53,861 bases of DNA from Planctomycetota bacterium (GTDB lineage: Bacteria; Planctomycetota; Planctomycetia; Planctomycetales; Planctomycetaceae). Positions 38-51,235 of the stretch are shown piece by piece. Within the stretch, counting starts at the first letter, position 1; each line of letters begins with the position of its first letter. The position numbers and the translations under genes are program-made. Under the pieces are notes generated by a model. That model saw only the letters and a list, made by a program, of their open reading frames with translations. It ran no database searches and had not been told where the DNA came from. The stretch spans positions 1 to 53,861 of the forward strand of contig JAURQH010000107.1 in the NCBI GenBank assembly GCA_030836185.1, written 5' to 3'.

Positions 38-75
38 TGACGCAAAGCCGCCAAGAGGCGAAGAAACGCAAAGGG
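38..75 (+). repeat. Solo copy of the GxxExxY-cassette terminal repeat
   Basis: The stretch begins TGACGCAAAG, preceded by a T-run, and continues with further GCGAAGAAACGCAAAG-like units. The same start and the same A/T-flanked arrangement are found at both ends of the GxxExxY cassette at 23673-24172. No GxxExxY gene is next to this copy. It may be a remnant end left after loss of a cassette, or the cassette may lie outside the window. Confidence 0.6.
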
Positions 76-2243: not shown

Positions 2244-5200
2244 ATGACTCTTTCCGACATCACGATTCGCGGCGCGCGTGAGCACAATCTTCAAAACGTC
2301 GACTTGGTCATCCCCCGCAATAAGCTGATCGTGATGACGGGCGTGTCCGGCTCGGGGAAAAGTTCACTCGCGTTTGACACCCTTTATGCCGAGGGACAAC
2401 GCCGGTATGTCGAATCGCTCTCCGCTTACGCGCGACAATTTCTGGGCCAGATGCCTAAACCGAATGTCGATTTGATTCAGGGGCTCGCACCGTCAATTTC
2501 GATTCAACAGAAAACGAGCGGACGTAACCCGCGCAGCACGGTGGGCACGATCACCGAGATCTATGATTATCTGCGAGTGTTGTTTGCGAGAGTGGGGCAG
2601 GGACATTGCACGGAATGCGACCGCCCGATTACTGCGCAATCGTCAGAGACAATTCTGGAATCGTTGCAACAAATCCCCGAGGGGACCAAGTACCTCGTCT
2701 TGGCTCCCCTGATTCAGCAACAAAAGGGGGAATACAAAGACCTGTTTGAAGATTTGCTCAAACAGGGATTTCTTCGTGCCCGTGTGAATGGTGAAGTGGT
2801 CCAACTGACTGACGACCTGCAACTTGGTCGGCATATGAAACATACGATTGAAGTCGTCATTGATCGATTGGTCGCCGGGAAAGTCACACGCACGCGATTA
2901 GCCGAGACGATTGAGACAGCGCTGCGGCAATCACAAGGCGCGTTACTTGTCGCCATTCAAAAAGAGAGCGATCAATTTGACGACCGACTTTACAGTTCCA
3001 AGTATGCCTGCACGCATTGTGGCATCAGTTACGAACCCCCATCGCCGCAGCTTTTCAGCTTTAACAGTCCGGTTGGGATGTGTCAGGAATGTAACGGCTT
3101 GGGGATGCGGCACGAGTTATTGATGGACAAGCTGATTCCCGACTCCTCCAAAACCTTGTGGTCGGGTGCGATTGACCTACTGGGACCGATTCGCAAAATT
3201 GGCCGTTGGAAGAAACATCTCTACAAAGGCATCGCACGCGCCATCGAAGAGGAACTGGAACTCGAAAAAGACACACTGCTGAAGACAGAATGGAGCGAAC
3301 TTCCTGAAGACGCCCGCCAACTGTTTCTCTACGGCATGAGTGACCGCAATATCACCTTTGAATGGCGACATTCGGGAGGCATTTGGAAGCACGGTGACAC
3401 TTACGATGGTGTTGTTGAAGAACTGCTGGAGAGTTATCGCAGCACGCGCAACCCGATGCGACGGCGACAAATCGAAAAGTACCTCGACTTCCGCGATTGC
3501 ACGGCATGTGCCGGGGAACGCCTGAACTCACAAGCACGCAGTGTGCGTCTCACCACGTCCAAAGCCTCCTTCGCTCGCAAGAAAGCAGATCGCTCATTGT
3601 CTCTGGGTGATGTCTGCGGCCTGAGTCTTGATAAAGCGTATGCCTTTTTCGAAGGTCTCGTGCTCGATGACATGCAGCAGATCATTGCCGAAGAAGCGAT
3701 CAAAGAAATTCGTGGGCGTCTTGAATTCTTGCTGCGTTGCGGCCTCAATTATCTCACTCTTGACCGCAAAGCGCCCACGCTTTCCGGGGGAGAGAGTCAG
3801 CGGATTCGGTTGGCCAGTCAGATTGGTTGCGGACTCGTCGGCGTGATTTACATCCTCGATGAACCATCCATCGGCCTGCATCCTCGCGACAACACGATGC
3901 TGCTGGATAGCCTGTGTGAACTCCGCGATCAGGGCAACACCGTCATCGTGGTTGAGCATGATGAAGAAACCATGAGAGCCGCCGATCAGATCATCGACTT
4001 CGGGCCGGGACCGGGTGTTCGCGGCGGGGAAGTGGTCGCGCAAGGCTCGTTGACGCAAGTCATGAAGAAACGGAAAAGTGTCACGGGCGCGTATCTCTCA
4101 GGAAAACGAACGATTGCAGTTCCCGAAGAACGGCGAGAGGGAAACGGCCATGCCATCCAAATGACCGGCGCGCGTCATAACAACCTGAAAGATGTTGATG
4201 TTGAAATTCCATTAGGCAAGTTTGTCTGTGTGACGGGCGTCAGCGGTTCGGGTAAAAGTTCGCTCATCAACGATATTCTCTGGCAAGCCGTCAACCGAGA
4301 CATCAACGGCGGCAAAGGAATGCCCGGCGATCATGACAAAATTGAAGGGTTCAAGCATATCGACAAAGCGATTGATATTGATCAATCCCCCATCGGTCGC
4401 ACCCCGCGCTCGAACCCCGCCACTTATGTCAAATTGTTTGATGAAATCCGCACGCTTTACACCAAGTTGCCCGAATCAAAATTGCGTGGCTACAAGCCAG
4501 GGCGATTCAGTTTTAATGTCGCGGCGGGTCGCTGCGAAGCGTGTGAAGGACATGGCTCGAACAAGTTGGAAATGGATTTTCTTGCCGACATTTGGGTGAC
4601 ATGCCCGGTGTGTGAAGGCAAACGGTTTCATCACGAAACGCTGGAAGTGAAATACAAAGGGAAGAGCATTGCCGATGTCCTGGATATGGACATTCAGGAA
4701 GCGTTGGAGCATTTCGAGAATCATCCCAAGATTCATCGACTGTTACAGACACTACATGATGTGGGTCTTGATTATTTGAAACTGGGTCAACCTTCGCCGA
4801 CACTCTCGGGCGGGGAAGCCCAACGGATTAAATTGGCAAGGGAATTGGGGAAACGCAGCACGGGTCAAACTCTATATCTACTCGACGAGCCAACAACCGG
4901 ATTGCATTTTGCAGACGTTGAAAAGTTACTCGAAGTGTTGCACGGCTTTGTCGATGCAGGGAACACGGTGCTGGTTGTCGAACACAATTCGGATGTGATC
5001 AAGACAGCAGACTGGGTGATCGATCTTGGTCCCGAGGGAGGCGAAGGTGGAGGTTCCATTATTGCGGAAGGACCTCCCGAGAAAATTGCAAAGACGCGAA
5101 AGTCTCATACCGGAGCGGCATTGTTGCCGTTTATCCCGGCATTGGTCACCAAAGCCAAATCGAAACGCCTCTCGGCACCGACCGATTCACCAGTCATGAA

Positions 5201-8200
5201 ACAACTGGCACGCCGCACGCCCGTCAAAGAGTTCAAGAACATCGAAGTGACGGGCGCGAGACAACACAATTTACAGAATCTCGACGTTAATATTCCTCGC
5301 GAGCAAATGTCTGTCTTCTGTGGGCCCTCCGGGAGCGGCAAGACGTCACTCGCCATGGACACAATCTACGCCGAGGGACAACGGCGGTATGTGGAATCGC
5401 TGTCCTCATACGCTCGACAGTTTCTCGGCCGGATGCCCAAGCCGCGGGTCGAACATATTCAGGGTCTCTCTCCCGCCATCGCCATCGAACAGAAAAACAC
5501 GGGATCGACTCCCCGCGCAACCGTCGGCACAATCACCGAGATTTACGACCATCTCCGCGTGTTGTTCGCACGTTTGGGTGATCAATACTGCCCCGATTGT
5601 CATCTCCCGGTCGAATCCCAGACGACCGACCAGGTGATTGATCGTCTGCTGGAATTTGAACGAGGCACAAAAATCATTCTGTTGGCACCACAAGAAGTGG
5701 CCATCAATCGTACCTTCCAATCGGTCTGGGAGAATTTGCAAGCGGAAGGGTTTACCCGTGTCCGCGTCGACGGGGAAATTTATCGATTCGAAGATGTTCC
5801 CGAAATAGATCATAAGCGCTATCACGATGTTGCCGTTGTTGTGGACCGCGTGACCGTTGATTCCAAAAAACGGGGACGGCTGGCAGACTCGGTCGAGACC
5901 GCTCTCGATCATGGTCGTGGCTTCATGATTGCCTTGGTTGAGAAAGACGACGACAACGTCGAAGAACGCCCGTTTTCTCTCGCACGATTCTGTCACTCGT
6001 GTGAACGAAGTTTCGAAGAGCATTCGCCGCATCACTTTTCGTTCAACAGCTCTCTCGGTTGGTGTCCGGCGTGTGAAGGACTCGGTACAGAATCGGGGTC
6101 AACACTCATCGAACAATTGATTGACCTGGATAAAACACTCGCCGATGGTGCGATTCTCGCTTGGCCAACATTCGAAGAGAACCCGGCCTTCGCAAAAATC
6201 ATGCAAGCGGTGTGTGATCATTACGAAATTCCGACCGACGAATACTTTGACTATCTCGAATCGGCACAGCGTCGAATTCTGTTATTTGGAGGAGACGCCG
6301 AAGAATGGATCCCCCTCGATAAGACGGGCAGACAGAAAATCCGGTTCAAGGGACTGATGTCGGCTCTCGAAGAAGCATCACAGCTTTCTTACACGTACCG
6401 TCGTAAATTACAGGGTCAACTCAGTCAGGGGCAATGCTCGGTTTGTCGCGGGAGTCGTTTACAGGAAGAAGCGGCCGCCGTGAAATTGCACGGACAAACC
6501 ATCGACGATGTCTGTCGGAAACCACTCAATGAAGCCATTGAGTTTTTCGATTCGATTGTGCTCTCGAAACGTGAAAAACAGATTGCCGGCGATTTGCTCT
6601 CCGAAGCGAGAAACCGCCTCTCTTTCCTCATTGATGTGGGACTCGAATATTTGAATCTTGGGCGTTCACTGCCGACACTCTCGGGCGGGGAAGCACAACG
6701 CATTCGTTTGGCGGGTCAACTCGGGCGCGCGTTAACAGGTGTCTTGTATGTCCTCGACGAACCGACCATCGGCCTTCATCCCCGTGATAACCGCCGGCTA
6801 TTGGAAGCCCTTAAGAAACTCCGCGACCTCGGGAACACTTTGGTGCTGGTCGAACATGATCGCGAAGTGCTCGAAGCATCCGACCGCTTGTACGATTTCG
6901 GTCCGGGAGCCGGTCGTCTGGGAGGAACGATTGTCGGCGAAGGAACTCACAAAGGACTCGGGCGATCAAAAACGTCTCTCACGGGGCGATACCTTGCGAA
7001 CAAAGAAGAGATCCCCATTCCCAAGTCCCGCCGAACATCGGGAGTCAAAAGTGATCAGCCACCGGGAGGAGGTTGGCTGGAATTATTGGGAGTCCGCCAT
7101 CGCAACCTGCGAGATGTCGATTTACAGATTCCGTTAGGGACGATGACCTGCGTGACGGGTGTTTCAGGATCGGGGAAAAGTTCGCTCATCGAAGAAACTT
7201 TGGCGCGAGCCGTCAATCGGCATTTTTCCAGGTCGGGAGATGAACCCGGCGAACATGCCGACCTGCTGGGTGTCCAAAATCTCAACAAACTCGTCGTCGT
7301 CGATCAGAAGCCACTGGGGTCGACACCCGCCTCAAACCCGGCCACTTATACCGGCGTATTCGATCACGTTCGAGATTTGTTTTCTCGTTTGCCGGAAGCG
7401 AAAGTTCGCGGCTATCGCCCGGGACGATTCAGTTTTAATCGTGCGGGTGGACGTTGCGACGATTGCGAAGGGAACGGCCAGATTTGTGTCGAGATGCATT
7501 TTCTGCCCGATGTATGGGTCGAATGCGAAACCTGCAAAGGTCGACGTTTCAATCAGGAAACTCTGGATGTGAAGTTCCGAGGAAAATCGATTGCCGACGT
7601 GTTGGAAATGTCGATTGGCGAAGCCAACGATCTGTTCAATAATGTCCCAAAAATTCGACAATATCTGGCGACGTTATGCGCCATCGGTCTCGATTACCTG
7701 ACGTTGGGACAATCGGCTCCAACGCTCTCCGGTGGTGAAGCACAGCGCGTCAAACTGGCTGCTGAGTTGGCGCGACCACAAACTGGCAAAACTCTCTACC
7801 TTTTGGATGAGCCAACGACGGGGCTGCATTTTGACGACATTCGTAAATTGCTCAAGGTGCTCGGTTCGCTGGTCGAAGCGGGGAACTCAGTCGTCGTCAT
7901 CGAACATAACATTGATGTCATCAAATGTGCTGATTGGATTGTCGATGTCGGTCCTGAAGCGGGGGACGGCGGGGGTTGGATTGTCGCAGCAGGAACTCCC
8001 GAACAAATCACGGGACTCGAAAAACTCCCCCAAGCCAAAGACAAGCAGTACTGTTTCACGACCAATCATCCGAGTTGGACGGCCGATATTTTGAAACCGG
8101 TCCTCAAACAGGGGAAACGAGCCGAAGTAGAAATCTTCAATGTCGGTGAAGTCGCCGAGAAAAAAACAGGCGACCTTGAACTGCGTCACATCGGCAAAGA

Positions 8201-9128
8201 CGAGAAGATGCCTTGGGAGCGTGACGGTCAAAAATGGCACACTCAAGACCGCCGGGCACACAATGGCAACGAATGCCAGTGGGAAGGAAACGCATTGCTG
8301 TCCGTTGTCGAGAGAATCAACAAACATAAACGATTCCCCGAGATCAATTGGAAGAACCGAGCCGTCGTGGAAATGACGGCAGAAGGAAAATCTTCGACCT
8401 GGTTCTTACACGCCATGACGGGGGAGGAATGGCTGCTGACTTTCAAATTCCGCGTGAAGAAAAACACCTTCAAGCAGGCCGATCTTGATGACGCTTTCAA
8501 TCTGCCGCCATTGGATGAGGTCGATGAGCTACCCGTTTACGGCAAGACCAAACGTGTTCGCGTGAAAAATAAGAACGGCCCGTGGCAGGAAGTTCAAATA
8601 GCCGTCCACTGGGCAGAAGAAATTGATACGCCCGAGTTTTGGGAGTTCCTAGAGACGGCGATGGAGTCTTATTTGAAGCAGGTCTCCGCAGAGAAATTGA
8701 ACATCGAAGATCTTTCTCCCTGGAAAGTGCTGGGACGTAAATGGCATTACACTCGCAAAGGATTCCCGAGTAACAAACGGGTATTATGGAAAATTGAGAC
8801 ACTCGAATCTTTGGAAGAGCTGTTAAATCAAACCTTCCCGAAAGCGGATTGGGATTGGCAGAACAAAACCATCGTCAACTTCACACCTGCGGGAAGTTCG
8901 ACTTCACTTTCCATCAATACCAAACGTCGAGAGGGCATCGATCTCAAACTCCCCGCGGATGCCGAACAATTTGCCTTAGGACAAATTGCCGGCTTGGGAA
9001 GTAAGCGTGACATTGCCGCCAAGTCGGATGGCAGCGAAGAACTTACGATCCGTTTCAAAACGGTCGATCAAGCGAGTTCGCCCGAGTTGCTCAGTTTTTT
9101 GAGGGAGTATGCGAAAAAAGTAATTTGA
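2244..9128 (+). CDS. uvrA: Tandem double UvrA (excinuclease ABC subunit A) with extra C-terminal repeat domain
   Basis: UvrA is the damage-sensing ATPase of nucleotide excision repair and normally acts as a dimer of about 940-residue chains. This 2294-residue protein holds two full UvrA units in one chain. Unit 1 (about 1-965) has Walker A motifs GVSGSGKSS at 33-41 and about 665-673, LSGGE signatures near 513 and 854, and UvrA zinc-finger CxxC pairs. Unit 2 (about 992-1930) has GPSGSGKT near 1027, GVSGSGKSS near 1639, and signatures near 1480 and 1828. All four ATPase sites look intact, so this is a pre-joined pseudo-dimer. Long UvrA proteins are known in planctomycetes. After unit 2, residues 1985-2294 form an unrelated region with two copies of a Trp-rich repeat. 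The start follows a weak CAGG site. No other repair gene is adjacent. Confidence 0.95.
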
Positions 9129-19133: not shown

Positions 19134-20209
19134 CAGGTAAGATCCACTTTTTGATGAAGGTCGTATTTGTCATCGACGGCAATCCCCTCACACAGCAGAC
19201 CGATCATTTGATCCGCCAAAACGGGAGACAGCAAAGCTCCCCGCGAACCCAAGCCGTTGAAAAATCCGAGGCGTGCGTCATTCGGGTGAAGTCCCATTCT
19301 TGGCGAACGTCCATGAATCACGGGACGTATTGCTGCACGGTGTTCGACGATGTCCCCTTCTCGTGAAACATTTTGTAACTGGTTCCATTTCTGAAGAAGA
19401 TCGGTTCGGCCTGCTTCTGTGGGACATTGATCAAGTTGTTCTCGTTCGTAAGTGGCACCAATTCGGATGCGATGATTGTTCTCAGGAGCCACCCATAATC
19501 CTGCATGAACAACACGAGACTCTCTCCAATCCGGTACATTCAAAGTGAGAATTTCCCCCTTGGCAGCATCAAAAGGGACGTCTCGAAACCACGGATTTTT
19601 TGTTGCTTCAAACCCCTGACAGAAAATTATCTGGTTACACACGACGTTCAACTGCGGAACTGAGATTTGATCTTTCTCAATCTGCAAATCTTCAGGCAGC
19701 GATAATGTGACCTCTCGATAGCCACCCCGCGACTCGAAGTATTTTTGTGTGGCCGTTAAATATGATTTTGTATCAAGCCGAGCGGCTGACAACATTTCAA
19801 ATCCACCAAAGGGCGATGAAACTGCTTGAGGTAATGCTGATTCTTCACACAAGCTGACATCATCGGCGTCGCGATATTTCTTGAGAAATCGTTCCCGTTC
19901 TTGTCTCGATGCGAAGAGCCGCACCATCGGTGATTCCGAAAAGAATCTTTCATCGGTTTGTTTTTCGACGAATTGATAGAACTTTCTAGCAGCGTCATAA
20001 CACTGTCCCCAGTCGGGATAGCGAGTGAGTCGTTGACCGGTGATCGGCGTGAGCAAACCGGCTGCAATCCGCGAGGAGGAAGACTCGTCACCGCGGTCAA
20101 CCAACAACACCGATTCTCCGCGTTCATGAAGTTTCCATGCAAGTGCGGAACCGGCAAGCCCTTGCCCTAGAACGACAGTTTCAAATCGATGTGCGGAAGT
20201 GTTGGCCAT
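19133..20209 (-). CDS. FAD-dependent oxidoreductase (DAO fold), candidate MnmC(o)/MnmL-like
   Basis: The protein has the D-amino-acid-oxidase fold: GxGxxG at 15-20 (GQGLAG), an acidic residue D38 ending the second strand, SSSSRIAAGLLTPITGQR at about 43-60, and a C-terminal FNGLGSRGALLSP segment that closes over FAD. Enzymes of this fold oxidise amines; the C-terminal half of E. coli MnmC is one, converting cmnm5U to nm5U in tRNA. The gene is coupled to mnmM, whose enzyme performs the next step, so a tRNA-modifying role is a reasonable inference. A thiazole/glycine-oxidase-like role is the main alternative. The ATG at 20209 has only a weak ribosome binding site. Confidence 0.85.
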   Translation of the reverse strand: MANTSAHRFETVVLGQGLAGSALAWKLHERGESVLLVDRGDESSSSRIAAGLLTPITGQRLTRYPDWGQCYDAARKFYQFVEKQTDERFFSESPMVRLFASRQERERFLKKYRDADDVSLCEESALPQAVSSPFGGFEMLSAARLDTKSYLTATQKYFESRGGYREVTLSLPEDLQIEKDQISVPQLNVVCNQIIFCQGFEATKNPWFRDVPFDAAKGEILTLNVPDWRESRVVHAGLWVAPENNHRIRIGATYEREQLDQCPTEAGRTDLLQKWNQLQNVSREGDIVEHRAAIRPVIHGRSPRMGLHPNDARLGFFNGLGSRGALLSPVLADQMIGLLCEGIAVDDKYDLHQKVDLT

Positions 20210-20265
20210 GAAGGTATGAAGTCACAATCAGAAAACCCTCAGACTTTTCAAAGGGCTTCCTGACT

Positions 20266-20610
20266 CTACTCTTCAGCCGCTCCACGAATGGTTGCGCTCT
20301 GACGCTGTTTCTTCACCACTTGATCTCGCTTTCGAGCCAAGGTATGCACAGTTCGATCAAGAGCCCCCGTCAATGCAGAACCAACATTCTCGGCCGTCTC
20401 TTCAATCACCGTCTCGCCGGTCATCTCGCAGTTCAAATGGACACGACACTGGATATCGACGCCTCCCTTGGGGCCATTCAAGTCGCGAAGAGTGACCGAA
20501 ACATCTTTAATTTGCTCTTGGAAACGGCTGAGTTTTGAAACCACTCGTTCTTCTGTGGTTTCGCGAATCTGACTCGGCAACGATTTATCAATATGGCATT
20601 CGAGGTGCAT
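20266..20610 (-). CDS. HPF/RaiA-like ribosome-associated protein, 114 aa
   Basis: The sequence has the S30AE-domain character of hibernation factors: about 110 residues, an early strand, ERVVSKLSRFQEQIKDVSVTLRD, then a GGVDIQCRVHL strand and a long basic helix with DRTVHTLARKRDQVVKKQ. Such proteins bind the 30S decoding region and stabilise idle ribosomes. It is a short-form type without the C-terminal dimerisation domain. A strong AAGGAG site lies 8 nt before the ATG at 20610. The match is by pattern rather than strong identity, so the exact role is uncertain. Confidence 0.7.
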   Translation of the reverse strand: MHLECHIDKSLPSQIRETTEERVVSKLSRFQEQIKDVSVTLRDLNGPKGGVDIQCRVHLNCEMTGETVIEETAENVGSALTGALDRTVHTLARKRDQVVKKQRQSATIRGAAEE

Positions 20611-20783
20611 GAATCACTCCTTGGATAAGTCGATTTTTTGTGTCTCTATCAGACCAACGAAGTTCCTTTAGTTTAGGATCACCACGATAGTTTCCAAAGA
20701 GAAATTTCATTGGGAATAACGGAAATCGTAATTTTGTGATGTGTCTCATTTACTCCCGATAGTAGTCGTCGCGCAGGACGCCG

Positions 20784-20951
20784 TCAAAAACAACCTTTCT
20801 TCAGGCAGCATTTCTTGAATCGCTTGCCAGATCCACAGGGACACAAGTCATTACGACCGAGCTTCTCGACGAGCAGTTTCTCGCCGTGTACAACACGCAC
20901 ACCTCGTTTGACATGCGTCTCAGACGGATAACCGCGACGCCGTTTACTCAT
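20784..20951 (-). CDS. Small SEC-C zinc-binding protein, 55 aa
   Basis: The C-terminus carries the SEC-C motif as [18 protein letters not shown], with the CPCGSGxxxKxCC zinc ligands seen at the end of SecA and in many small proteins. The rest is a basic segment, [18 protein letters not shown] chose the ATG at 20951; the frame stays open to 21161, but that extension overlaps the next gene and is low-complexity Arg/Ser-rich. No strong ribosome binding site is visible. Role unknown; the motif can bind zinc and sometimes the ribosome or SecB. Confidence 0.65.
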
Positions 20952-21124
20952 CGTCTCGACGGCAGTGGCCTCGAAAGCAGGGATGATCCGATTCGAAGTT
21001 AATGAACTGCTTGTGTTGCTGTGATGACATAACTCACCTCCTCCTCTGTCAGAATGTCGTTGGTCAACGCATCTCTCCGACAGACGAAAAGGGAATCTGG
21101 TTCGGCATCTTCGACTACCGTGGC

Positions 21125-22060
21125 CTAGCCAACAGCAGCCGTATCTTCCTGACGACTCCAAAAGTAATCAGAAACATACTGTGCGATTTCCGAATTGGGA
21201 GTCGCCCATCGCCAAGCTCCTTCATCGCCTAAAACAAGATCAGCGACAGCATCGGTCGGTTGTTCACTTAAGAAATGGTGCCGTCCATCATATTGACGAT
21301 TGGTATAGTCTCCATGCCAAAGCTGAACCAAGGTTCCCGAGATGCAATCTACAGTCATCCCGGATCGTTGACGGATTTGATGGCTCCAGCCTTCAAACGC
21401 CCGGTCAAACATCGGACCGGAGGAAAGATGTGACTGGAAGGACGCTTCCATTCCCTTCATCAGGGAAGGCAACGCGCAGTCTCCACTTCCAATGATGCAT
21501 TGATCAAATAAACCGATCCCTTCCAGGCAGTCTCGGCGTGCCGCCCAAGCTAATCCGGTCCGACCATAGTTTTGAGCGCGAAGATAGGGCATCATTTTCC
21601 GTGGGTCAAAGTCGGCCCTCTGAGCACGATTGGCGAAGCTGAAGTTCAACTCAACTTTGGAAGCATCCAAATTGTTTAATTCCCTGTCAGTTTGATTCGC
21701 CTGATAAGCGAATTCAAACGGCTGTACGAAATCAGAATGTTTCAGAGCCTCGCTCGTTGCTTCCGCCCAATCATCTCGCGTAAAGACAATATCGCAATCC
21801 AGCCACGCGATTTCCGTGCAGTCATCGGGAATATAACTCTCGATCAGAATGTTGAGTAAGCGTTCCTTTTGGAACATCACATCGCCATCTTCGATGCGAA
21901 CCATGATCTCGGCATCATATGCATCGAGATCGAAGTGTCCATTGAAGCCTAATTCTATCGCAATCAAAGGCACATTGAGATGCTCGCGAAAGAGGTGGTA
22001 ATTTTTGAGGCGGTTGGCATAGTGACAAGGATTAAAATAACTCGTGATTGCGTACAACAT
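21125..22060 (-). CDS. GT-A-like glycosyltransferase family protein, 311 aa
   Basis: The N-terminus [11 protein letters not shown] begins the first strand of a nucleotide-sugar fold, and a DxD-type motif follows in AWLDCDIVF (D88, D90), which would bind a metal and the sugar nucleotide. Later segments such as [22 protein letters not shown] resemble the acceptor-side region of GT2-like enzymes. No signal or membrane segment is seen. I chose the ATG at 22060, which has AAGGAAA 7-8 nt upstream; the open frame reaches 22144 but lacks a site. The substrate is not predictable, and it is not in a polysaccharide cluster. Confidence 0.75.
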
Positions 22061-22555
22061 TGTGATTTCCTTTTCACACGTTTCGAAGAATGTCGAAGTG
22101 AGGGCTTCTTGCATCCCAATGGGATTCAGATTTCCAGCGTGCATACTGAGTCAAGACTTCGCGCAATTCCATCAAATAATGACGCATTTCTAAGAGTGCC
22201 AATAATCGCAGGTGGATGCCTCACATGATTCTCGTTCTATTCAGGCCACTCTCGAACCTCAAGCGGACGACCGTATTCTAAATGAGGAGATCATGAACCA
22301 GCAACGTGGACGAATACGCGGTTTCGGCTATGATTTCAGGGAGTCGACAATGATTGCAAACCGCATCCCATTCCGACACAATGGATGATCGGCAGTTCGC
22401 CCGGCGACTGCTCCCACCTGATGACCCTCCACGGATTCGGTCGGTTTTTTCAAAATCAAACACACTTTCAATCCTCCTATTGGCTCAGGAATCCCCCAAG
22501 CCCGGGTTGAGATTGATCAGACATTATTATCACCCTTTCGAAACAGGATCTCATC
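22061..22555. other. Intergenic region without a recognisable gene
   Basis: This 495-nt region separates two divergent genes. On the minus strand a TTGACT lies at 22148-22153, but no convincing -10 follows. On the plus side a CAGGA site precedes the GTG start at 22556. I see no tRNA, repeat or hairpin of note. Confidence 0.5.
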
Positions 22556-23653
22556 GTGAGTACGACTCTGGAAGACAAAGTGAAAGCCGCTCGCGAAGCG
22601 GTCGACAAACAAGCCGTCGAAATCGTGCAACTGCACTTCCACCCGGAAGACGGTGCCCCCTACTGGCTCGAAAAAGCCAAAGGGTTTGACTTCGACCCAC
22701 TCACCGATGTGAACTGCTTCGACGACCTGAAAAAGTTCCCCCTCTTCGAGGACGACGATCTTCGCGGCGGTCCCGTTGATCGATTCCTGCCGAAAAAATG
22801 GCACGACAAAGGACGTTACGTTTTTGAAACGGGTGGCACGACGGGAACTCCCAAAAGTCGTTGCGTCGTGGATGACTTCCGTATCGATTACGAAGAGTTC
22901 TCCAAAACTCTTCCCGATGAACATTTCCCCCGCGGTGCCAACTGGTTGATGCTCGGCCCGTCCGGCCCACGTCGATTACGACTTGCCGTTGAACATCTTT
23001 GCCAAACTCGTGGAGGCATCTGCTTCTGTGTCGATCTCGATCCTCGCTGGGTCGTGAAATTGATCAAGCAAGGCAAGATCGATGAAGCCAAGGCCTACAG
23101 CGCGCACGTCATCGATCAAGCCATGACCATCCTGACATCGAACCACAACGTCCAATGCATGTTCGCCACGCCCAAACTGCTTGAAGCGCTGGCCCTGCGA
23201 CTCATCGATGAAGACAGCAGCATCGAAGAAGCTGGCATCACGGGTATTTTTGCCGGCGGAACCGAGTTCACGCCACAATGGTATCGCTTCTGCAAAGAAG
23301 AGTTACTGGGCGAAAATGTTTACATCACGCCGACCTACGGCAACACATTGATGGGTCTCGCTTGTGGCAAGCCTTTCGATCCTGCCGATAATTTCAAGAT
23401 CACCTATTACGCACCACAACCACGAGCCGTCGTGGAGGTCGTCAACTTCGACAACTACGACGAACTGGTTGACTACGATGAAACCGGCCGCGTCAAACTC
23501 TACACGTTGACTCACGAACTGTTTATCCCCGGCTTCATGGAACGTGATGAAGGAGAACGCGAACGTCCACACGAAAAATATCCATGGGACGGCGTCTCGG
23601 GAACTCGACCGTTTCATGAAATCGCCAAGAGCACAACAGTGGGAGTTTATTGA
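22556..23653 (+). CDS. AMP-forming acyl ligase, LuxE/phenylacetate-CoA-ligase-like, 365 aa
   Basis: The enzyme would activate a carboxylic acid as an acyl-adenylate. The phosphate-binding loop appears as ETGGTTGTPKS at 91-101. Later adenylate-forming motifs are visible as AGGTEFTP and ITPTYGNTLMG. The length is close to LuxE acyl-protein synthetase rather than to full CoA ligases, which are longer by a C-terminal domain. It starts at GTG 22556 with CAGGA upstream. The next catalytic gene downstream is an aldehyde dehydrogenase-like protein, interrupted by a GxxExxY cassette. A ligase plus acyl reductase pair would convert an acid to an aldehyde, as in LuxE-LuxC. The acid substrate is unknown. 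Confidence 0.8.
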   Translation: MSTTLEDKVKAAREAVDKQAVEIVQLHFHPEDGAPYWLEKAKGFDFDPLTDVNCFDDLKKFPLFEDDDLRGGPVDRFLPKKWHDKGRYVFETGGTTGTPKSRCVVDDFRIDYEEFSKTLPDEHFPRGANWLMLGPSGPRRLRLAVEHLCQTRGGICFCVDLDPRWVVKLIKQGKIDEAKAYSAHVIDQAMTILTSNHNVQCMFATPKLLEALALRLIDEDSSIEEAGITGIFAGGTEFTPQWYRFCKEELLGENVYITPTYGNTLMGLACGKPFDPADNFKITYYAPQPRAVVEVVNFDNYDELVDYDETGRVKLYTLTHELFIPGFMERDEGERERPHEKYPWDGVSGTRPFHEIAKSTTVGVY

Positions 23654-23672
23654 GCTTGAGTGGATTATTTTC

Positions 23673-24172
23673 TGACGCAAAGCCGCGAAGAAACAAAGAA
23701 TCGCGAAGAGTCGAATGAAGCATGCGGGGTGGTATGACATGATGAATGAAAATGATCTGAGTCATGTCATCATCGGTGCAGCCATTGAAGTTCATCGCGA
23801 ACTTGGTGGTCCCGGCCTTCTCGAAAGTCTTTATGAGGAAGCTCTGAAGTTTGAATTGGAAAGTCAGGGTTTGAAAGCTGAGCGTCAGATTGAAGTGCCG
23901 ATTTTTTACAAAGGGAATCAATTATCAAAAGTGTTTCGTATTGATCTCCTGGTGAACGATCTTGTACTTGTGGAATGTAAAGCGACCGAAGAAGATCACG
24001 ACATCTACCGATCACAATGTTTAACTTACTTAAAATTGACTGACAAACGGTTGGGACTGGTGATTAACTTCGGCCAGAAACTCCTCAAAAATGGAGTCCA
24101 CCGAGTCGTCAATCAGTTGGATTAAAATACTTAACTCTTTGCGTTTCTTACCGTCTTTGCGTCTTTGCGTCA
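23673..24172 (+). mobile_element. GxxExxY cassette bounded by imperfect inverted repeats
   Basis: The left end at 23673 starts TGACGCAAAG; the right end at 24172 is its exact reverse complement, CTTTGCGTCA. The similarity extends inward for about 39 nt with roughly three quarters of positions alike, and outward into a short T/A run. The cassette contains only the GxxExxY gene. Taking it out would leave the ligase stop and the dehydrogenase ribosome binding site about 40 nt apart, as expected for a normal operon. A third copy of the end lies at 38-75. No transposase is encoded, so movement would need another factor. Confidence 0.65.
23715..24125 (+). CDS. GxxExxY family protein, 136 aa
   Basis: The name-giving motif is present as GLLESLYEEAL, preceded by the typical GAAIEVHRELGGPG. 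It continues with VEFRIDLLVND-like strands (VFRIDLLVNDLVLVECKA) and a C-terminal GLVINFGQ segment. The ID...VECKA pattern resembles a PD-(D/E)XK nuclease core, as proposed for this family. The function is not known. Genes of this family are often flanked by short 'CGCAAAG' repeats, exactly as here. It sits between two apparently functionally linked genes on the same strand but is unlikely to be part of their pathway. Confidence 0.88.
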   Translation: MKHAGWYDMMNENDLSHVIIGAAIEVHRELGGPGLLESLYEEALKFELESQGLKAERQIEVPIFYKGNQLSKVFRIDLLVNDLVLVECKATEEDHDIYRSQCLTYLKLTDKRLGLVINFGQKLLKNGVHRVVNQLD

Positions 24173-24194
24173 AAAATTGAAAGGACCATCAACC

Positions 24195-25637
24195 ATGCTC
24201 GAAATACCCGTAATCCGCTGGGGCAAGCCCTACGAATCGATGGATCAATCGCCCGTCGTCCATTTTGAAACCGGTGAAGAACTTGCTAAAGTCCATCAAG
24301 CCAACGGCGGCATCATCAAGATGGATATGCGCAAAGCCAAAAAAGCACGCGATCTCCTGCGTCAGCATTCCATCGAAGACCTCATCGGCATGTGCGAAAA
24401 AGCGGCCGACTATTATGTCAACGATGAACTTCCGATGGGCAACGGCACGCAAACTCCCGATGAATTCTGCCGTATTCAATCGGCCTCAACCGGCCTGCCC
24501 GAACATATGTGCAAATTCAACATGGGCAAGAGCGCCTATGTGATGAAAAACATGGGCAAAGTCCTTGACGCACTCACTCGCGGCTTGCCTCTCGATGTCT
24601 TCAGTAAAGGCTACGGCGAAGAAGGACGCGGCATCAATATCAGTTATCAGGCGACAACCAACGCTTGTGGCTGGGTCTTGCCTTCCAACTCACCCGGCGT
24701 GCATACATTGTGGCTCCCCGTGATCCCGCTGCAAATCGGCCTCGTCCTCAAGCCGGGTTCTTCCGAACCGTGGACACCTTACCGGATGTTTGAAGCGATG
24801 GTGAAAGCCGGCATCCCGCGCGAAGCATTCTGTTTGTACCCCGGACCTCACGAATGTGGCTCGGCGATTATGGAAACCTGCGAACGCTCGACTATTTTTG
24901 GTGGGCAGGCCACCGTCGATCAACATGCCGGCAATCCCAAAGTCGCCGCTCACGGTCCCGGTTACAGTAAGATCGTCATTGGCGAAGACAAAATCGAAGA
25001 TTGGGAACAGTACATCGATTTGATGGTCGACAGTCTCTACGTGAACAGTGGACGCAGTTGCATCTCGGCGTCCGGTATCTGGGTACCTAAATACGGAGCC
25101 GAAATCGCCGATGCCATCGCCAAAAAACTTGGCACTGTGCAGCCAAAACCAATGACCGACCCGGACTCCGGTCTCGCTGCGTTTACGATGAAGGGTGCTG
25201 CCGAGGCGATGAACAACATGATCGACGAAGGTTGTAAGTCGGCAGCCGTCACCGATGTCACGGCCAAGTATCGCGATGGCGAGCGATTGATTCAGGAAGA
25301 ACGCTGCGACTTCCTGCTTCCTACTGTCTTACATGTGACCGACCCTGACGATGCCATGGCGAACACCGAGTTCATGTTTCCGTTCGGCTCGGTCGTCGAA
25401 TGTCCGCAGGACAAGTTCCTCAAGAAGTGTGGCTACACTTTGGTCTGTACAGCCATCACCGACGATGAAGATTTTCAAAGAGATCTGATCGACGCGACCA
25501 ATGTCGACCGTCTCAACATCGGCGAAGTGCGGACGTACCAGATCCACTGGATGCAGCCGCACGAAGGAAACATCATCGACTTCCTGTTCCGCAACCGAGC
25601 GTTTCAGACAGAACCACCCCCGGCGACGGAAGTGTGA
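24195..25637 (+). CDS. Aldehyde dehydrogenase superfamily / LuxC-like acyl reductase, 480 aa
   Basis: The chain has the aldehyde dehydrogenase fold: NAD-binding region with LPSNSPGVHTLWLP and KPGSSEPWTP, and a catalytic cysteine C289 in NSGRSCISASG. An unusual N-terminus and the pairing with a ligase suggest that it reduces an activated acyl group to an aldehyde instead of oxidising aldehydes, as LuxC does; this is inference. I chose the ATG at 24195 because AAAGGA lies 9 nt upstream. A hairpin with a GGGGGC stem at 25683-25710 follows the stop. The upstream ligase is separated from it only by the GxxExxY cassette. Confidence 0.8.
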   Translation: MLEIPVIRWGKPYESMDQSPVVHFETGEELAKVHQANGGIIKMDMRKAKKARDLLRQHSIEDLIGMCEKAADYYVNDELPMGNGTQTPDEFCRIQSASTGLPEHMCKFNMGKSAYVMKNMGKVLDALTRGLPLDVFSKGYGEEGRGINISYQATTNACGWVLPSNSPGVHTLWLPVIPLQIGLVLKPGSSEPWTPYRMFEAMVKAGIPREAFCLYPGPHECGSAIMETCERSTIFGGQATVDQHAGNPKVAAHGPGYSKIVIGEDKIEDWEQYIDLMVDSLYVNSGRSCISASGIWVPKYGAEIADAIAKKLGTVQPKPMTDPDSGLAAFTMKGAAEAMNNMIDEGCKSAAVTDVTAKYRDGERLIQEERCDFLLPTVLHVTDPDDAMANTEFMFPFGSVVECPQDKFLKKCGYTLVCTAITDDEDFQRDLIDATNVDRLNIGEVRTYQIHWMQPHEGNIIDFLFRNRAFQTEPPPATEV

Positions 25638-25682
25638 GAAGAAGGAATCAGGAGCCGGGATTCAGGAGTCAGGATGGGTGCC

Positions 25683-25710
25683 GGGGGCGCTTCGCGTAGC
25701 GAAAGCCCCC
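25683..25710. repeat. GC-rich hairpin downstream of the dehydrogenase gene
   Basis: GGGGGC at the left pairs with GCCCCC at the right, and an inner TTCGC pairs with GCGAA around a GTA loop. It lies 46 nt after the stop at 25637. No T-run follows, so termination by this hairpin would be atypical. It looks like a dispersed palindromic repeat. Confidence 0.5.
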
Positions 25711-25788
25711 GTGAAAACCGTTCTCTCTTTGATTCAAACTCCGCGGGCCGTATCGTAAACACGCTACATCTCAAGAGTCCGAAACCTC

Positions 25789-25902
25789 ATACTCTTATTT
25801 TCGTCGTAAATCGTGGACTCGCCGACCTTTCCAAGAGTCTTCAAGGGTATGGGACACAGACACACACTTCTCATACTCTTGACGATACTCTTCCATACTC
25901 TT
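25789..25902. repeat. Cluster of four ATACTCTT octamers
   Basis: ATACTCTT occurs at 25789-25796, 25873-25880, 25885-25892 and 25895-25902. The last three are spaced by 12 and 10 nt, close to one helical turn. AAGAGT and AAGGGTAT, which are inverted or near forms, lie between the first and second copies. This could be a set of protein-binding sites, but no gene start is close. Confidence 0.45.
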
Positions 25903-26551
25903 GAGCAACTTCCGGCTGCTTGACGAGTTACGTCGATTGTCATTTCAACCCCTGAGTGTCTCGTTCTGACGACATTTCGTCGGTGATTTTCAGACAGAGA
26001 AAAAGGTAATTTGTTTTTTGTACTTAATGATTTGCCGACCAAGCTCAAAGAACAAAATCCAAAGCACTCAAGACGAATTCCAAATTGTCAAAGATCGTAT
26101 CCAGAACGCTAACTCTGGTAAGATTCATAATTCAAGAGCAGATTCGCAGGGGACTGATGTGCGAATCGTGGTGAAGGCGACGAGAAACGGAACACTCATT
26201 TTCGTTGATCGGCACTCATCAATTTCGATGCTCCCGAATCGTGATGGATGATTTGATAAGGAAGCCAGGAACTCAGGAGGGGTATAGCCCGATCTGCGAG
26301 CAAGTGAAGGCCGCCGAACAGTCGTGAGGAAATAAGGCATCACGCGCTAGTAATCGCATCTCCGTATTCAGTCGGGATGGGTTCGAGAGTCGTTCCGTAT
26401 TCATATTCGATGCCCCTCCGTCCTCAGGGGAGTTGGCAGGGGTGAAAGGACCACGGATCACGCCGATTTCGCGGATCAGAGGTAAGGTATCATCGTGAGT
26501 GACACGAATCGTTCGCACCCGCATGATGAGTCATCCTGTGACATTCTGTCA

Positions 26552-26573
26552 CCCGGCCAGAAAACTGGCCGGG
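26552..26573. repeat. Perfect 9-bp palindromic hairpin
   Basis: CCCGGCCAG (26552-26560) and CTGGCCGGG (26565-26573) are exact inverse complements around AAAA. It is about 140 nt after the convergent PD-(D/E)XK gene. There is no T-run on either side. Its form matches intergenic palindromic repeats. Confidence 0.55.
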
Positions 26574-26710
26574 CCACCCTGCGCTCACCAAAAATCTCAG
26601 CTCACATACCCAAGCTGAACTAAAAGGTATTGCAGTCCCTCTTTGATTGGAAACCAATCTATCGAGTAAGTTCCTACAAGCTCTAATACCTTATCTTTTT
26701 TGCCGGTAGG

Positions 26711-27163
26711 TTACTGAACCTCACCTTTGAGAGGTTTGTTTGACCGAAAATATTCGTAGATGGGACTTGCAATCTTTCCAGAAAAAAACTTTGAGTCCTC
26801 ACAGAGCGCCAATACAAATCCAGTCGAGAATCCATTTTGATTGAGTTGCTCAACAAAGGCTATGTCTTTGCAAATATCAAACATCGACTCTGGAACTCTT
26901 CCATTACGTGGATATTTCAATTCGATAGCGCAAACCTGCTTTTTTGAATTCCTGTCCGAGATAGAAAGATCAATTTCCTTTTTATGTAATCCTTCCTTCG
27001 AAATACCAAAATGTGACACGTTTCGCTCAAATTCCACCTTTTTTTCTGGGAGTCGATCCCTTAAAAAAATGCCTAACTCATGCTGGAGGCTGAACTCATT
27101 GTAGACCTCTATTTCTGCTGTCTTGAGAGATTCAATAAAATCAAGAATTAGCTGTTTCAACAT
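26711..27163 (-). CDS. PD-(D/E)XK nuclease-like protein, 150 aa
   Basis: A restriction-nuclease-like core is visible: E29 in LQHELGIFL, then KKEIDLSI with D65, a spacer, and AIELKYP giving E81 and K83. This D-x(n)-ExK spacing is what PD-(D/E)XK enzymes use for metal-dependent DNA cleavage. The rest is a helix-rich C-terminus with IAFVEQLNQNGFSTGFVLAL. I chose the ATG at 27163, which has GAGGAG 5 nt upstream; the frame is open to 27232. No methyltransferase or helicase is next to it, so a restriction system is not supported. It lies in an accessory stretch beside toxin-antitoxin-like genes. Confidence 0.65.
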   Translation of the reverse strand: MLKQLILDFIESLKTAEIEVYNEFSLQHELGIFLRDRLPEKKVEFERNVSHFGISKEGLHKKEIDLSISDRNSKKQVCAIELKYPRNGRVPESMFDICKDIAFVEQLNQNGFSTGFVLALCEDSKFFSGKIASPIYEYFRSNKPLKGEVQ

Positions 27164-27198
27164 CAAACTCCTCTGAGGTTTCTTTGCATGGGACCATA

Positions 27199-27326
27199 TC
27201 CTCGCTTGCGTGGGCATGTGAGTCAAAGGCAAACGTCCAGTGTGGACCAGACGGAAGTTGTTGAGAGTGAATTACAAGTTCACTCACAATCATCGTCCCC
27301 TGCGTGCTGGCGCACGCGGCTCAATT
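27199..27326. repeat. Dispersed intergenic repeat, copy A
   Basis: The copy begins TCCTCGCTTGCGTGG and ends near GCGGCTCAATT. The 3' part includes ACTCACAATCATCGTCCCC and the hairpin GCGTGC-TGG-CGCACGC. It shares the first block with copy B and the last roughly 50 nt with copy C. It lies directly upstream of the PD-(D/E)XK gene. Confidence 0.7.
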
Positions 27327-27331
27327 CATCA

Positions 27332-27580
27332 TCACGATTTGACGAACGCGTTCAGTTCATGCAATGCTTCGGGGGCAAAATCGGCACCATTTGGCCAGAC
27401 GACAGTCCCGCAGACAGCATCCAACTCCACTCGTGCAAAGTAGTCTGCATCCTTGAGTGGCTCGAAGACCGCCCCCGACAATAACGGCAGTAGATCGACC
27501 GTCTTCCGAGTGCCGTCATTGAAGGCTAAATCGAGGGCCGAATTCCCCACGACATCGACTTCAGTGATTCGTAATATCAT
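27332..27580 (-). CDS. DUF2442 protein, 82 aa
   Basis: The sequence has the DUF2442 pattern: ITEVDVVGNSALDLAFNDG, then KTVDLLPLL, LKDADYFARVELD and a C-terminal VVWPNGADFAPEAL. DUF2442 proteins are small, DNA- or partner-binding-like, and very often sit next to a DUF4160 gene, as here (9 nt upstream). The pair is widely regarded as toxin-antitoxin-like, though which member is the toxin is not settled. Transcription order is DUF4160 then DUF2442. Confidence 0.88.
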   Translation of the reverse strand: MILRITEVDVVGNSALDLAFNDGTRKTVDLLPLLSGAVFEPLKDADYFARVELDAVCGTVVWPNGADFAPEALHELNAFVKS

Positions 27581-27589
27581 ATCGGCACC

Positions 27590-27850
27590 TTATTGCAGTG
27601 GTTGAATTTGATTGAGAGGTTGCGACTCACGAGCCAATTCCCAGTTTTTCTGGAGCTCACCTATGTGTTCCGTGGCCCAGTCCCGAACCAAAGTACGAGC
27701 GCGACGAGGTAGTTTTCCCATCAAAATTTCTCCGCTGGCAATCTCGAATGTCGCCTCTTCTTGACCATAGATTGCGTGAAAGTGCGGAGGAGCATGATCG
27801 CGATAATACATGTAAACGGCGATCCCATAAAATTCTGATATGCGAGGCAT
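27590..27850 (-). CDS. DUF4160 protein, 86 aa
   Basis: The chain begins MPRISEFYGIAVYMYYRDH and contains the PHFHAIYG motif that defines DUF4160, followed by EATFEIASGEILMGKLPRRA. The His residues of PHFH are the family hallmark. I chose the ATG at 27850; a GTG two codons earlier at 27856 is possible. It forms a two-gene unit with the DUF2442 gene, typical of toxin-antitoxin-like modules. Confidence 0.88.
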   Translation of the reverse strand: MPRISEFYGIAVYMYYRDHAPPHFHAIYGQEEATFEIASGEILMGKLPRRARTLVRDWATEHIGELQKNWELARESQPLNQIQPLQ

Positions 27851-27924
27851 GATCACATTGTCTCATTGGATGTGCTCTTTTGTCAATTTTATTCTTTAAC
27901 GACATCTGAATCTCTCCACAAGCG

Positions 27925-27953
27925 TTTCATCACCTTTCGCAGCATGGTAAAAT
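27925..27953 (+). promoter_or_regulatory. Candidate promoter of the nucleotidyltransferase module
   Basis: TTTCAT at 27925-27930 and TAAAAT at 27948-27953 are 17 nt apart. The surrounding 50 nt, including AGCATGGTAAAATGCAG, recurs at about 29965-30000 with TTTCAT, an 18-nt spacer and TAGAAT. The first gene starts at 27993. Confidence 0.45.
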
Positions 27954-27992
27954 GCAGGTCGTACTCGTTGGTTTCAGAACAACAGGCTCAAC

Positions 27993-28241
27993 ATGACCGA
28001 TATTGAACAGGAATACCGAGTCCGCCTCTCGACGATGTCGGTTGCCGAGAAAGTGGCTCGCTCTCAAGCGATGTTCCTCTGGTCGCGGGAGGTGATCGCC
28101 AAGCAGATCTCCGAGGAGCATCCCGAATACAGTTCCGAGCGATTGAAGTGGGAAGTCGCTGCCCGCATTTATGCGGATGAGCCAGAAACGATGAAACTCG
28201 TCGAAAGGATGCTCGAACGTGTTTCCCATCGAAGCCTTTGA
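27993..28241 (+). CDS. Small helical protein, first gene of a nucleotidyltransferase module, 82 aa
   Basis: The protein is predicted all-helical, with RLSTMSVAEKVARSQAMFLWSREVIAKQI followed by a PEYSSERLKWEVAARIY helix; I give the segments only as landmarks at about residues 11-39 and 44-62. It resembles in style the small 'Rv0078B-related antitoxin' proteins of planctomycetes, but I cannot confirm that. The end overlaps the start of the nucleotidyltransferase gene by 23 nt, so the two are one unit. I infer an antitoxin or regulator role. Confidence 0.7.
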   Translation: MTDIEQEYRVRLSTMSVAEKVARSQAMFLWSREVIAKQISEEHPEYSSERLKWEVAARIYADEPETMKLVERMLERVSHRSL

Positions 28242-49780: not shown

Positions 49781-51235
49781 TCAAATCGCGTGGGGACTGT
49801 CGGGGACGCGAAGATGCGGGTACTGCTGACCGAGTGCCGTTTCTAATTCTTCCAGCACTTCGGGAGAGAGAACGTGCTCGATCATGTCGGCGTCGCGGTC
49901 CACATGACTGGGAGCAATCTCGGCATAGCGGATGAGAAACAATTCCCACATGCGATGATTTCGGGCCGCGCGGACGGCTTTTGTCGCGCCTTCGGCAGTC
50001 AGTTGATAGCCGGCTTCTCCTTGACGTATCAGTAAGTCGTCTCGAATCGCCCGGTTCAGCAGAGATTGTACGCGGGCCGGTTTCCAGGTTCGTCGCGACA
50101 GTAACGAATTGAGAGTCAACATGCGGTCGGTCATTTGATCGCTGTGTAACATCATCCCCTCTGGGAGATTTTGCTCCAGGTGCTCGTAACAGGCACGCAG
50201 CAGATCGAGTCGGCCATGACGAATTCGAGAAATTCGCAGGCGTCTTAATCGTGTGATGACGCCTCGTTGAGTCCCGAAGAGCATACTGATGGTGAACAGT
50301 AGAGATCCCGAAAGCACAATCATGGGGCCAGTGGATAGCAGTGGAAATGTTGCTGACAAAATCACACCCGCGATTGCGCTGACGCCTCCGATGGCAGCCG
50401 AAATCCAGGACATGGTGCGCAGTGAGTCGGTCCAGAACCGTGCGGCTGCTGCGGGAATGACGGGCAAAGCGACGACGAGTAGTAGGCCGACCGATTGCAG
50501 GCCAATCACCGTGACCAGCACAATGAGCCCCATCAATAAACTGTCTAACAACAACACCGGCCAACCCTGGGCATGGGCGAACTCCTGATCGAATGAAAGG
50601 ATTGTCATCTCTTTGAACAGAAAGACGGTCACGAGAATAACCAATACAGCGAGACCGGCGAACAGCTTGACATCGTTGGCGAGTAACGAAGATGTTTTGC
50701 CGAACACGAATTGATGCAGGCCAGCCGCGTTCCCGGTACTCATGCGTTGCACAATCGTGAAGAGTGCGACTCCCACGCCGAAGAAAATACTCAGCACAAT
50801 GGCGAGAGCCGCGTCGTCTTTAATGCGTGTGTAATGCTTGATGGCGAGGGTACACAAGGCACCGCACAACCCACTGACAAAAGCCCCCGTTAATAATCCC
50901 GGAAGTGATTTTCCGCTACCCGGTTCGATCGATTCCATCACAAGGTACGCAATACCGATGCCCGGCAGAGAGGCGTGACCAACAACATCGCCGACCAGCG
51001 ACCGCTTGCGTAACAGCATAAACGTGCCGACAACTCCTCCCGAGATGCCGAGGAGGCAGGTTCCCATCAAGACAATACGAGTATTGTAATCTTGCAGTGA
51101 GAGCGTTCTGATCAGTCGATCAGAGACGCTGCGTGTTTCTTGTGCCAACAGATCACTGGGCGAGAAAATTGCGATGACGACCAGCAGAAACAAGATCGTT
51201 TTGAAGAATGACATGCTGCGAGAGACACCCGTCAT
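49781..51235 (-). CDS. Metal ABC transporter permease fused to a DtxR/MntR-like domain, 484 aa
   Basis: The N-terminal part (about 1-330) is an ABC-3 type permease with signal-like start, [20 protein letters not shown] and the EFAHAQGWP loop that contacts the ATPase. The C-terminal part (about 345-484) reads as a DtxR/MntR regulator: a winged helix with [20 protein letters not shown] and YQLTAEG, then [12 protein letters not shown] and [12 protein letters not shown]. The residues H, D, E and H occupy the positions of the MntR metal ligands. The permease would import Mn, Fe or Zn, and the fused domain could sense metal at the membrane. Such fusions occur in planctomycetes. The start overlaps the ATPase stop as ATGA. 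Confidence 0.88.

Follow-up and report, generated by a model that had tools for sequence, protein, structure and literature searches.

Between a ligase-like gene and an aldehyde dehydrogenase gene of a planctomycete lies a small gene of the GxxExxY family framed by inverted repeats, which raises the question of whether this segment is a mobile cassette and, if so, what moves it. We analysed the window (the whole stretch of 53,861 nucleotides that carries the locus), the genome to which it belongs (G000), the same operon in relatives and GxxExxY loci of more than 10 phyla. Together, the results point to very small bacterial mobile elements of a family not yet described, in which a nuclease gene is held in a frame of repeats. 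GxxExxY is a widespread family for which we know of no assigned role, and a search of the open part of the literature found no account of GxxExxY repeats or of their movement.

The cassette in the window and its repeats

The sequence-only reading of this DNA had described a GxxExxY gene framed by imperfect inverted repeats of about 39 nt. An inverted-repeat search bore this out, giving two arms of 43 nt each that are identical at 34 of 43 positions (79%) and enclose 422 nt (Table 1). The arms are built of three to four copies of the 7-mer CRCRRAG (here CGCAAAG and near copies) with a spacing of 8-10 nt. As proposed, removal of the cassette would leave only a short gap between the ligase stop (23651-23653) and the dehydrogenase ATG (24195); the figure of about 40 nt has to be corrected to 33 nt, i.e. 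the 15 and 18 nt outside the arms. The arms also coincide with the segment that varies between relatives (see below), as expected of cassette ends, with the correction that the likeness to other arrays extends 5' of the noted start at 23665, up to the ligase stop (GAGCTTGAGTGGATTATTTTC compared with GAGTTTGAGTGATCATTTTTT). The GxxExxY frame that opens at 23715 meets a TAG codon in the sister species G002, so translation probably starts at 23739.

Table 1. Coordinates of the features at the cassette locus and of the solo array within the window.
Feature	Position	Strand	Basis or remark
AMP-dependent CoA-ligase-like protein, upstream operon gene	22556..23653	+	AMP-binding and DVU_1553-type ligase matches, both below cut-off
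Leader, from the ligase stop to the arm	23654..23668	+	resembles the sequence 5' of solo arrays
5' arm, array TGACGCAAAG-CCGCGAAG-AAACAAAG-AATCGCGAAG	23669..23711	+	inverted-repeat search; array family of the genome
GxxExxY gene, predicted PD-(D/E)XK nuclease (TIGR04256 / PF13366)	23715..24125	+	likely start 23739
3' arm, inverted array, minus-strand reading TTTTTGACGCAAAGACGCAAAGACGGTAAGAAACGCAAAGAGT	24134..24176	-	
Aldehyde dehydrogenase family, downstream operon gene	24195..25637	+	PF00171, 76.3 bits
Solo array of the same family as the arms, then sequence read as REP-like	38..75	+	

The view that the cassette lacks a transposase was upheld by a Pfam scan of the window protein, which returned PF13366 only (128.1 bits, cut-off 22; TIGR04256, 135.8 bits, cut-off 35). 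The gene itself encodes a complete Cas4/RecB-type catalytic set in a Cas4-like predicted fold. In an alignment of 38 proteins (the window protein and 37 of the 80 named loci described below), D77, K89 and Q101 are invariant, position 87 is E in 33 and D in 5, and Y105 is kept in 35 of 38; D77, E87 and K89 are the PD-(D/E)XK catalytic residues of the window protein, and the order D ... E-x-K ... Q-x3-Y is the RecB/Cas4 pattern. A sequence search of the PDB gave no match at an E-value of 1. The AlphaFold2 model (pLDDT 92.3, pTM 0.86) has as its best structural match Cas4 SSO0001 (Foldseek E-value 7.7e-4; VIA-align Z 8.9, 2.8 A over 98 residues), the Z score being that of VIA-align, as the Foldseek superposition on this match is poor (rmsd 11 A). 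A restriction-endonuclease-like protein follows with Z 8.2, and Hjc, AddAB and others score lower, where values under 8 may reflect only a common arrangement. The protein thus resembles the Cas4/RecB-family nucleases (lambda exonuclease, AddB, with Hjc near in fold) in its catalytic D, E-x-K and Q-x3-Y pattern and in its predicted fold, and differs from them in standing alone, with about 125 aa, in a repeat-bounded cassette. It is kept by purifying selection, as its dN/dS between G000 and G002 is 0.055 (0.025 for the dehydrogenase part).

We then listed the repeat in the window and in its genome. The 10-mer TGACGCAAAG has 6 matches in the window at no more than one mismatch against 4.8 expected, and was rejected as evidence by itself because it is not above chance there. 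The longer array ACGCAAAGNCGCNAAG, searched in the same way, is found 61 times in the genome of 5.16 Mb, compared with 3 times for its reversal (overlapping matches entered separately), and the arms are therefore members of a genome-wide family. A solo end noted near the start of the window proved to be a real array, followed by a GGGTGGCACTGGCGG... sequence that is common to other solo arrays and that we read by eye as REP-like. In a looser list of 87 array sites in the genome stretches examined, most have no nearby inverted partner. Two of the three GxxExxY genes of this genome have arms, namely that of the window and L001, whose CACGAAT-type array was recognised by eye and reaches an inverted-repeat score of only 22; no arms were seen at the third, L003. 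For target duplications, 18 array sites were queried in sister species and 10 compared with G002, which yielded no clean junction: at 8 of the 10 sites the alignment ends at the array or before it, and the array is common to both genomes in 2 (C45a and C27a).

Two other sites of this genome were recorded. At G000:C23:47733-48645 (L031), inverted CGCAAAG arrays surround a RAYT-like gene (MPDHVH motif, by eye) which carries its own REP-like inverted repeats, also by eye, so that two repeat systems are nested. Near 33 kb of G000:C93 (L021, with L275 and L280), one intergenic site holds an array in G000 and three different inserts in three sister species.

The ligase-dehydrogenase gap in relatives

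Orthologues of the ligase-like gene adjoin the dehydrogenase in relatives too, and we read the gap between them in 93 loci, of which 63 were resolved and 30 were without an identified ligase end or dehydrogenase start; two pairs of loci with equal gap length and ends were counted as the same genomes. Among the 63 resolved relatives, 36 have a short, armless gap of 58-160 nt, so the gene is not found at this place in all of them. GxxExxY occupies the gap in 9 loci from 7 genomes. In four others (G001, of the same genus, G003, G023 and G135) it is replaced by an unrelated gene, 23S_rRNA_IVP (PF05635, hereafter IVP), with inverted arms of its own and of another type, and in G094 a gap of 153 nt keeps both CGCAAAG arms without the gene. 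Such alleles also differ within genera: in g31, G097 and G098 carry GxxExxY and G095, G096 and G032 have gaps of 64-82 nt; in g23, GxxExxY with CACAGAG arms is present in one genome, against a gap of 105 nt in two; in g72, one genome has IVP and three have gaps of 75-148 nt, the longest holding an unrelated palindrome. Because filled, empty, replaced and gene-less alleles are found across relatives, some of them within a genus, the gap segment is a unit that is gained and lost. In the closest filled and empty pairs, the intergenic sequence is too diverged to fix the exact ends or a target duplication.

Several loci were noted beside this survey. In L077, L082 and L087, from three other genera, two small genes share the gap, one of which resembles, by eye, an aspartic protease of clan AA, and no clear inverted arms were seen around these two-gene inserts. 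L365 looks by eye like a decayed IVP gene, which our script did not flag. L149 (G000:C24 near 95.6 kb) and L163 (G002:C103) are one site with two different IVP cassettes, and outside the new cassette of L149 G000 keeps a left arm of the G002 type, like the scar of a replacement.

The cassettes of G000, G002, G097, G098 and G119 at this gap are homologous, and the cassettes diverge in step with the dehydrogenase (r 0.81 for 21 pairs, G116 and G024 included), which suggests that these five descend from one old insertion. A recent insertion of the window's copy was rejected on the same ground; of the idea that the cassette interrupts the host operon, presence and absence at the gap stand and recency does not. 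The cassettes of G116 and G024 look like separate arrivals: between G116 and G097 or G098 the dehydrogenase is 86-91% identical and GxxExxY 69-70%. The outer edges, which are the same in both arms, read TGACGC in G000, G002, G097 and G098, CAGCGC in G116, AACGC in G119 and GCCAC in G024. In 6 of the 7 cassettes the 5' arm finds its best partner in the 3' arm of the same cassette. The window's cassette is the exception: its 5' arm pairs with the 3' arm of G097 at a score of 60, compared with 43 for its own 3' arm.

An alternative is that GxxExxY is a settled host gene, currently immobile, with arms serving as regulators or terminators of the operon. The homologous cassette in five genomes, with a divergence like that of the dehydrogenase, and the purifying selection speak for this explanation, as does a conserved placement elsewhere between genes of one complex or pathway, each common to members of a clade, with examples identified in mutA/mutB, meaB/methylmalonyl-CoA epimerase, gatA/gatB and cysD/cysN, and beside nuoL. 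We nevertheless consider it very unlikely in view of the empty, replaced or gene-less alleles at the gap within genera, of the several copies per genome and of the many gene-less pairs.

Arms and gene-less arrays across genomes

For the survey across phyla we used the best 80 of 389 relatives of the window protein, which are close to it and come from more than 10 phyla (named loci). They are partly orthologous, and the counts are not independent; two were dropped for short flanks, leaving 78. A planctomycete set comprised one locus from each of 30 of the 35 genomes with a match and two more loci of the window's genome, making 32, of which two were dropped for the array and partner counts. Matching inverted arms with a score of at least 30 flank 60 of the 78 named loci (from the best 80 of 389), the other 18 scoring below 30, against 2 of 408 positions shifted by 1.2-3 kb within the same loci. 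A comparison with mismatched arms is harder to pass, because arms of different loci resemble each other: 25 of these 78 loci lie above the 99th percentile of mismatched arms, as do 19 of the 32 planctomycete loci against 0 of 26 for the dehydrogenase control. When all arms of a set are compared as partners, the own 3' arm comes out alone at the top in 18 of 30 planctomycete loci, 25 of the 78 named ones (again of the best 80 of 389), 20 of 30 IVP cassettes and 3 of 26 controls. Arms thus differ between elements and yet match within one element.

CRCVRAG arrays stand on both sides in the expected orientation at 40 of the 78 named loci (best 80 of 389) and 13 of 30 planctomycete loci, against 0 of 30 IVP and 0 of 26 dehydrogenase controls. 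Both sides have the wrong orientation in 5 of 78 and 2 of 30, respectively, and the reversed motif is present on one side at 11-13 of the 78 named loci. Chance, in which low-complexity purine-rich flanks would mimic inverted repeats, draws on the 10-mer not being enriched in the window, but the pattern was not reproduced by the shifted, mismatched, reversed or wrong-orientation controls, and we find this explanation hardly credible.

In annotated records, GxxExxY lies in the fabD/fabG gap of Sphingomonas and by radA in Bacteroides. Methylmalonyl-CoA mutase operons carry it at the meaB/epimerase junction in L175, L182, L190 and L194 (Desulfuromonadales-type) and at the mutA/mutB junction in L187, L199, L203 and L239 (Bacteroidales), the operon genes being named in L175 and L187 and placed by synteny in the remaining loci. 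With 8 of the 80 named loci set aside for want of two genes nearby (within 800 nt), GxxExxY shares the direction of both neighbours at 50 of the remaining 72 and opposes both at 1, many of these loci (from the best 80 of 389) being orthologous. In planctomycetes (2 of 32 loci dropped) the counts with and against both neighbours are 15 and 5 of 30 for GxxExxY, 18 and 4 of 30 for IVP and 13 and 1 of 25 for the ordinary dehydrogenase. Since the latter shows the same bias, orientation is not a distinguishing mark, and we dropped it as evidence for an RNA route. A tblastn search with the window protein gave no match in 50,697 phage records and matches in 8 of 72,556 plasmid records, for 5 of which the context was read.

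To count arrays irrespective of genes, we used three exact 7-mer-pair patterns in 59 relatives, one palindrome giving two to four pairs; the census includes the cassettes' own arms and its statistics ignore phylogeny. It yielded 1139 pairs against 111 for the reversed patterns. The 35 genomes that carry GxxExxY account for 1080 of these and the 24 that lack it for 59 (p 6e-4), the top four genomes holding 736 of the 1080; the reversed control is also unequal (88 with GxxExxY, 23 without, p 0.009). The number of arrays follows that of GxxExxY genes with a rank correlation of 0.58 and a partial rank correlation of 0.33 (p 0.013) given IVP, Y1 transposase, reverse transcriptase, genome size and control pattern; the corresponding partial values are 0.13 for IVP, 0.00 (p 0.99) for Y1 and -0.03 (p 0.83) for reverse transcriptase. 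With the arms measured at 49 loci (23 pairs) removed, the difference stayed at p 7e-4 and the partial correlation was 0.32 (p 0.015); removing 0.5 pair per gene (113 gene matches) gave p 0.009 and 0.15 (p 0.25), and removing 1 pair per gene match gave p 0.09. As the counts contain the genes' own arms, which make up part of the excess, the link between GxxExxY and array numbers is moderate. Genomes with a given array type in the examined GxxExxY arms hold more further copies of that type (CACAGAG, 2 vs 28 genomes, p 0.007; CACGGAG, 5 vs 25, p 0.03; CGCAAAG, 2 vs 28, p 0.07).

The genome richest in CACGGAG is G031, with 226 7-mer pairs, and the CACGGAG array is absent from all 6 GxxExxY loci examined of its 7. 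Of 22 gene-less copies read there, 12 are arranged head-out, span 61-80 nt and differ in their loops, 9 are head-in pairs and 1 is incomplete. Some have common flanks (L387 with L396; L319 with L399 and L403), several others differ, and no consistent target duplication was seen by eye.

These counts bear on whether some other enzyme, for example a RAYT, moves the array repeats, with GxxExxY genes merely landing in or between them. Such a mover would fit the inverted arrays that enclose the RAYT-like gene of the window's genome (by eye), the solo arrays that adjoin REP-like sequences, the weakening of the array-GxxExxY link once the genes' own arms are allowed for, and the commonest array of G031, which flanks none of the six GxxExxY genes examined there. 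On the other side, Y1 counts are unrelated to arrays given GxxExxY, also after removal of 0.5 pair per gene (-0.03, p 0.85), and among genomes with at least 5 Y1 genes those that carry GxxExxY hold more arrays (p 0.009; 0.06 after the same removal). Arrays frame GxxExxY by the same rule in many phyla, and G054, with 36 array pairs and no Y1 match, hints against a RAYT. Weighing these, we regard another mover as decidedly unlikely; with Y1 and reverse transcriptase partial correlations of about 0, neither RAYT nor reverse transcriptase is supported as the driver of array numbers.

A possible mode of spread and related systems

The reading that we prefer, though tentatively and with somewhat less than even confidence, is that the cassette is a REP/RAYT-like mobile unit that has a nuclease in place of the RAYT transposase and arms that fold into a stem in the transcript. 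A minimal Cas4/RecB-type nuclease gene would lie between two inverted copies of a dispersed unit, in which a T-rich head is joined to about three CRCRRAG 7-mers. The nuclease would recognise the arms and drive the spread of the cassette and of the gene-less inverted pairs, the latter being a non-autonomous form presumably spread in trans. The cassette would settle in gaps between genes of one operon and be co-transcribed with them, and its arms would close a long stem in the RNA; the host operon might tolerate it because, as we propose, RNase III could cleave this stem, as it does in 23S rRNA intervening sequences. Recognition of the arrays by the nuclease, the way in which new copies insert and the processing of the RNA are the steps that we infer. 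In the RNA minimum-energy fold, the arms pair around the whole gene (z -3.84, with 0 of 100 shuffles as stable).

RAYT/REP units are described in PMC2817692 as a gene for a DNA-cutting enzyme with two inverted copies of a dispersed repeat, accompanied by gene-less doublets; REPINs are described in PMC3116915. The GxxExxY cassettes are like RAYT/REP (REPtron) units and REPINs in having one gene for a (here putative) DNA-cutting enzyme between two inverted copies of a short dispersed repeat, many gene-less inverted doublets in both orders and no target duplication seen. They differ in the enzyme, which would be a PD-(D/E)XK nuclease of the Cas4/RecB type and not an HuH Y1 transposase (PF01797), and in the unit, which by our reading is a direct array of CRCRRAG 7-mers and not a tagged palindrome with its own hairpin, so that only inverted pairs are palindromic; moreover, the examples named here sit inside operons. 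MITEs are likewise short, dispersed, gene-less palindromes, but the gene-bearing GxxExxY form has no transposase and no consistent target duplication, and the match of the cassette gene to PF13366 only, with no transposase, also sets it apart from classical IS elements and transposons.

The 23S rRNA intervening sequences are, according to PMC4990558, elements with a terminal stem and a small ORF, set within a transcript and patchily distributed. Those with an S23p/IVP ORF (PF05635) resemble the cassettes in being short, with terminal inverted repeats that form a long stem round the ORF, and an IVP cassette occurs in the identical operon gap of relatives. The window's cassette lies between two protein genes and not in 23S rRNA, it encodes a different protein, IVP cassettes are without CRCRRAG array arms (0 of 30), and no Rfam family reached its gathering score within positions 20000-28000 of the window.

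The likeness allows another account, in which the cassette is an IVS-like RNA element defined by its stem, excised by RNase III and spread by a reverse transcriptase of the host or of a group II intron, GxxExxY and the 23S-IVP protein being interchangeable passengers or stem-binding helpers. It would explain why IVP cassettes with arms of their own occupy the same gap, their protein being known from 23S rRNA intervening sequences (PMC4990558), and it agrees with the pairing of the arms in the predicted RNA, with outer edges that agree within an element and differ between elements at the gap, and with the preference for the own arm in GxxExxY cassettes there (6 of 7) and in IVP cassettes (20 of 30). 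It does not account for array numbers that fail to track those of reverse transcriptases, for a specific 7-mer kept in arms across phyla beyond what a stem needs, for the head-in pairs of G031 (9 of the 22 examined), which are not cassettes, or for the window's 5' arm pairing better with a 3' arm from G097; gene orientation gives it no help, as the dehydrogenase is similarly biased in planctomycetes. Overall, we judge an RNA element of this kind to be unlikely. Returning to the nuclease-driven unit, the nuclease may not be the mover, because IVP cassettes share the architecture without it; these cassettes and G031 are the strongest arguments that something else may move the unit.

A wider proposal, which we see as possible but still on the unlikely side, is that GxxExxY cassettes form a separate, cross-phylum class of mobile elements, whose nuclease would cut the hairpin formed by the arms, either in single-stranded DNA or in an RNA:DNA hybrid, and thereby move itself and many gene-less CRCRRAG pairs, settling between co-transcribed genes; IVP cassettes would be a second branch and the 23S rRNA intervening sequences its best-known corner. 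If the reading preferred here is right, the GxxExxY family would gain a function and REP/RAYT a nuclease-driven counterpart, a class of purine-rich palindromes in many genomes would be explained, and these palindromes would be tied to intervening sequences through the alternation at one operon gap.

Two further genes of the window were noted apart from the cassette. An ORF of 2294 aa at 2244-9128 contains two UvrA interaction and two UvrA DNA-binding stretches and looks like a tandem, double-length UvrA. At 49781-51235 on the minus strand, an ABC-3 permease domain is fused to the metal-binding and dimerisation domain of an iron-dependent repressor.
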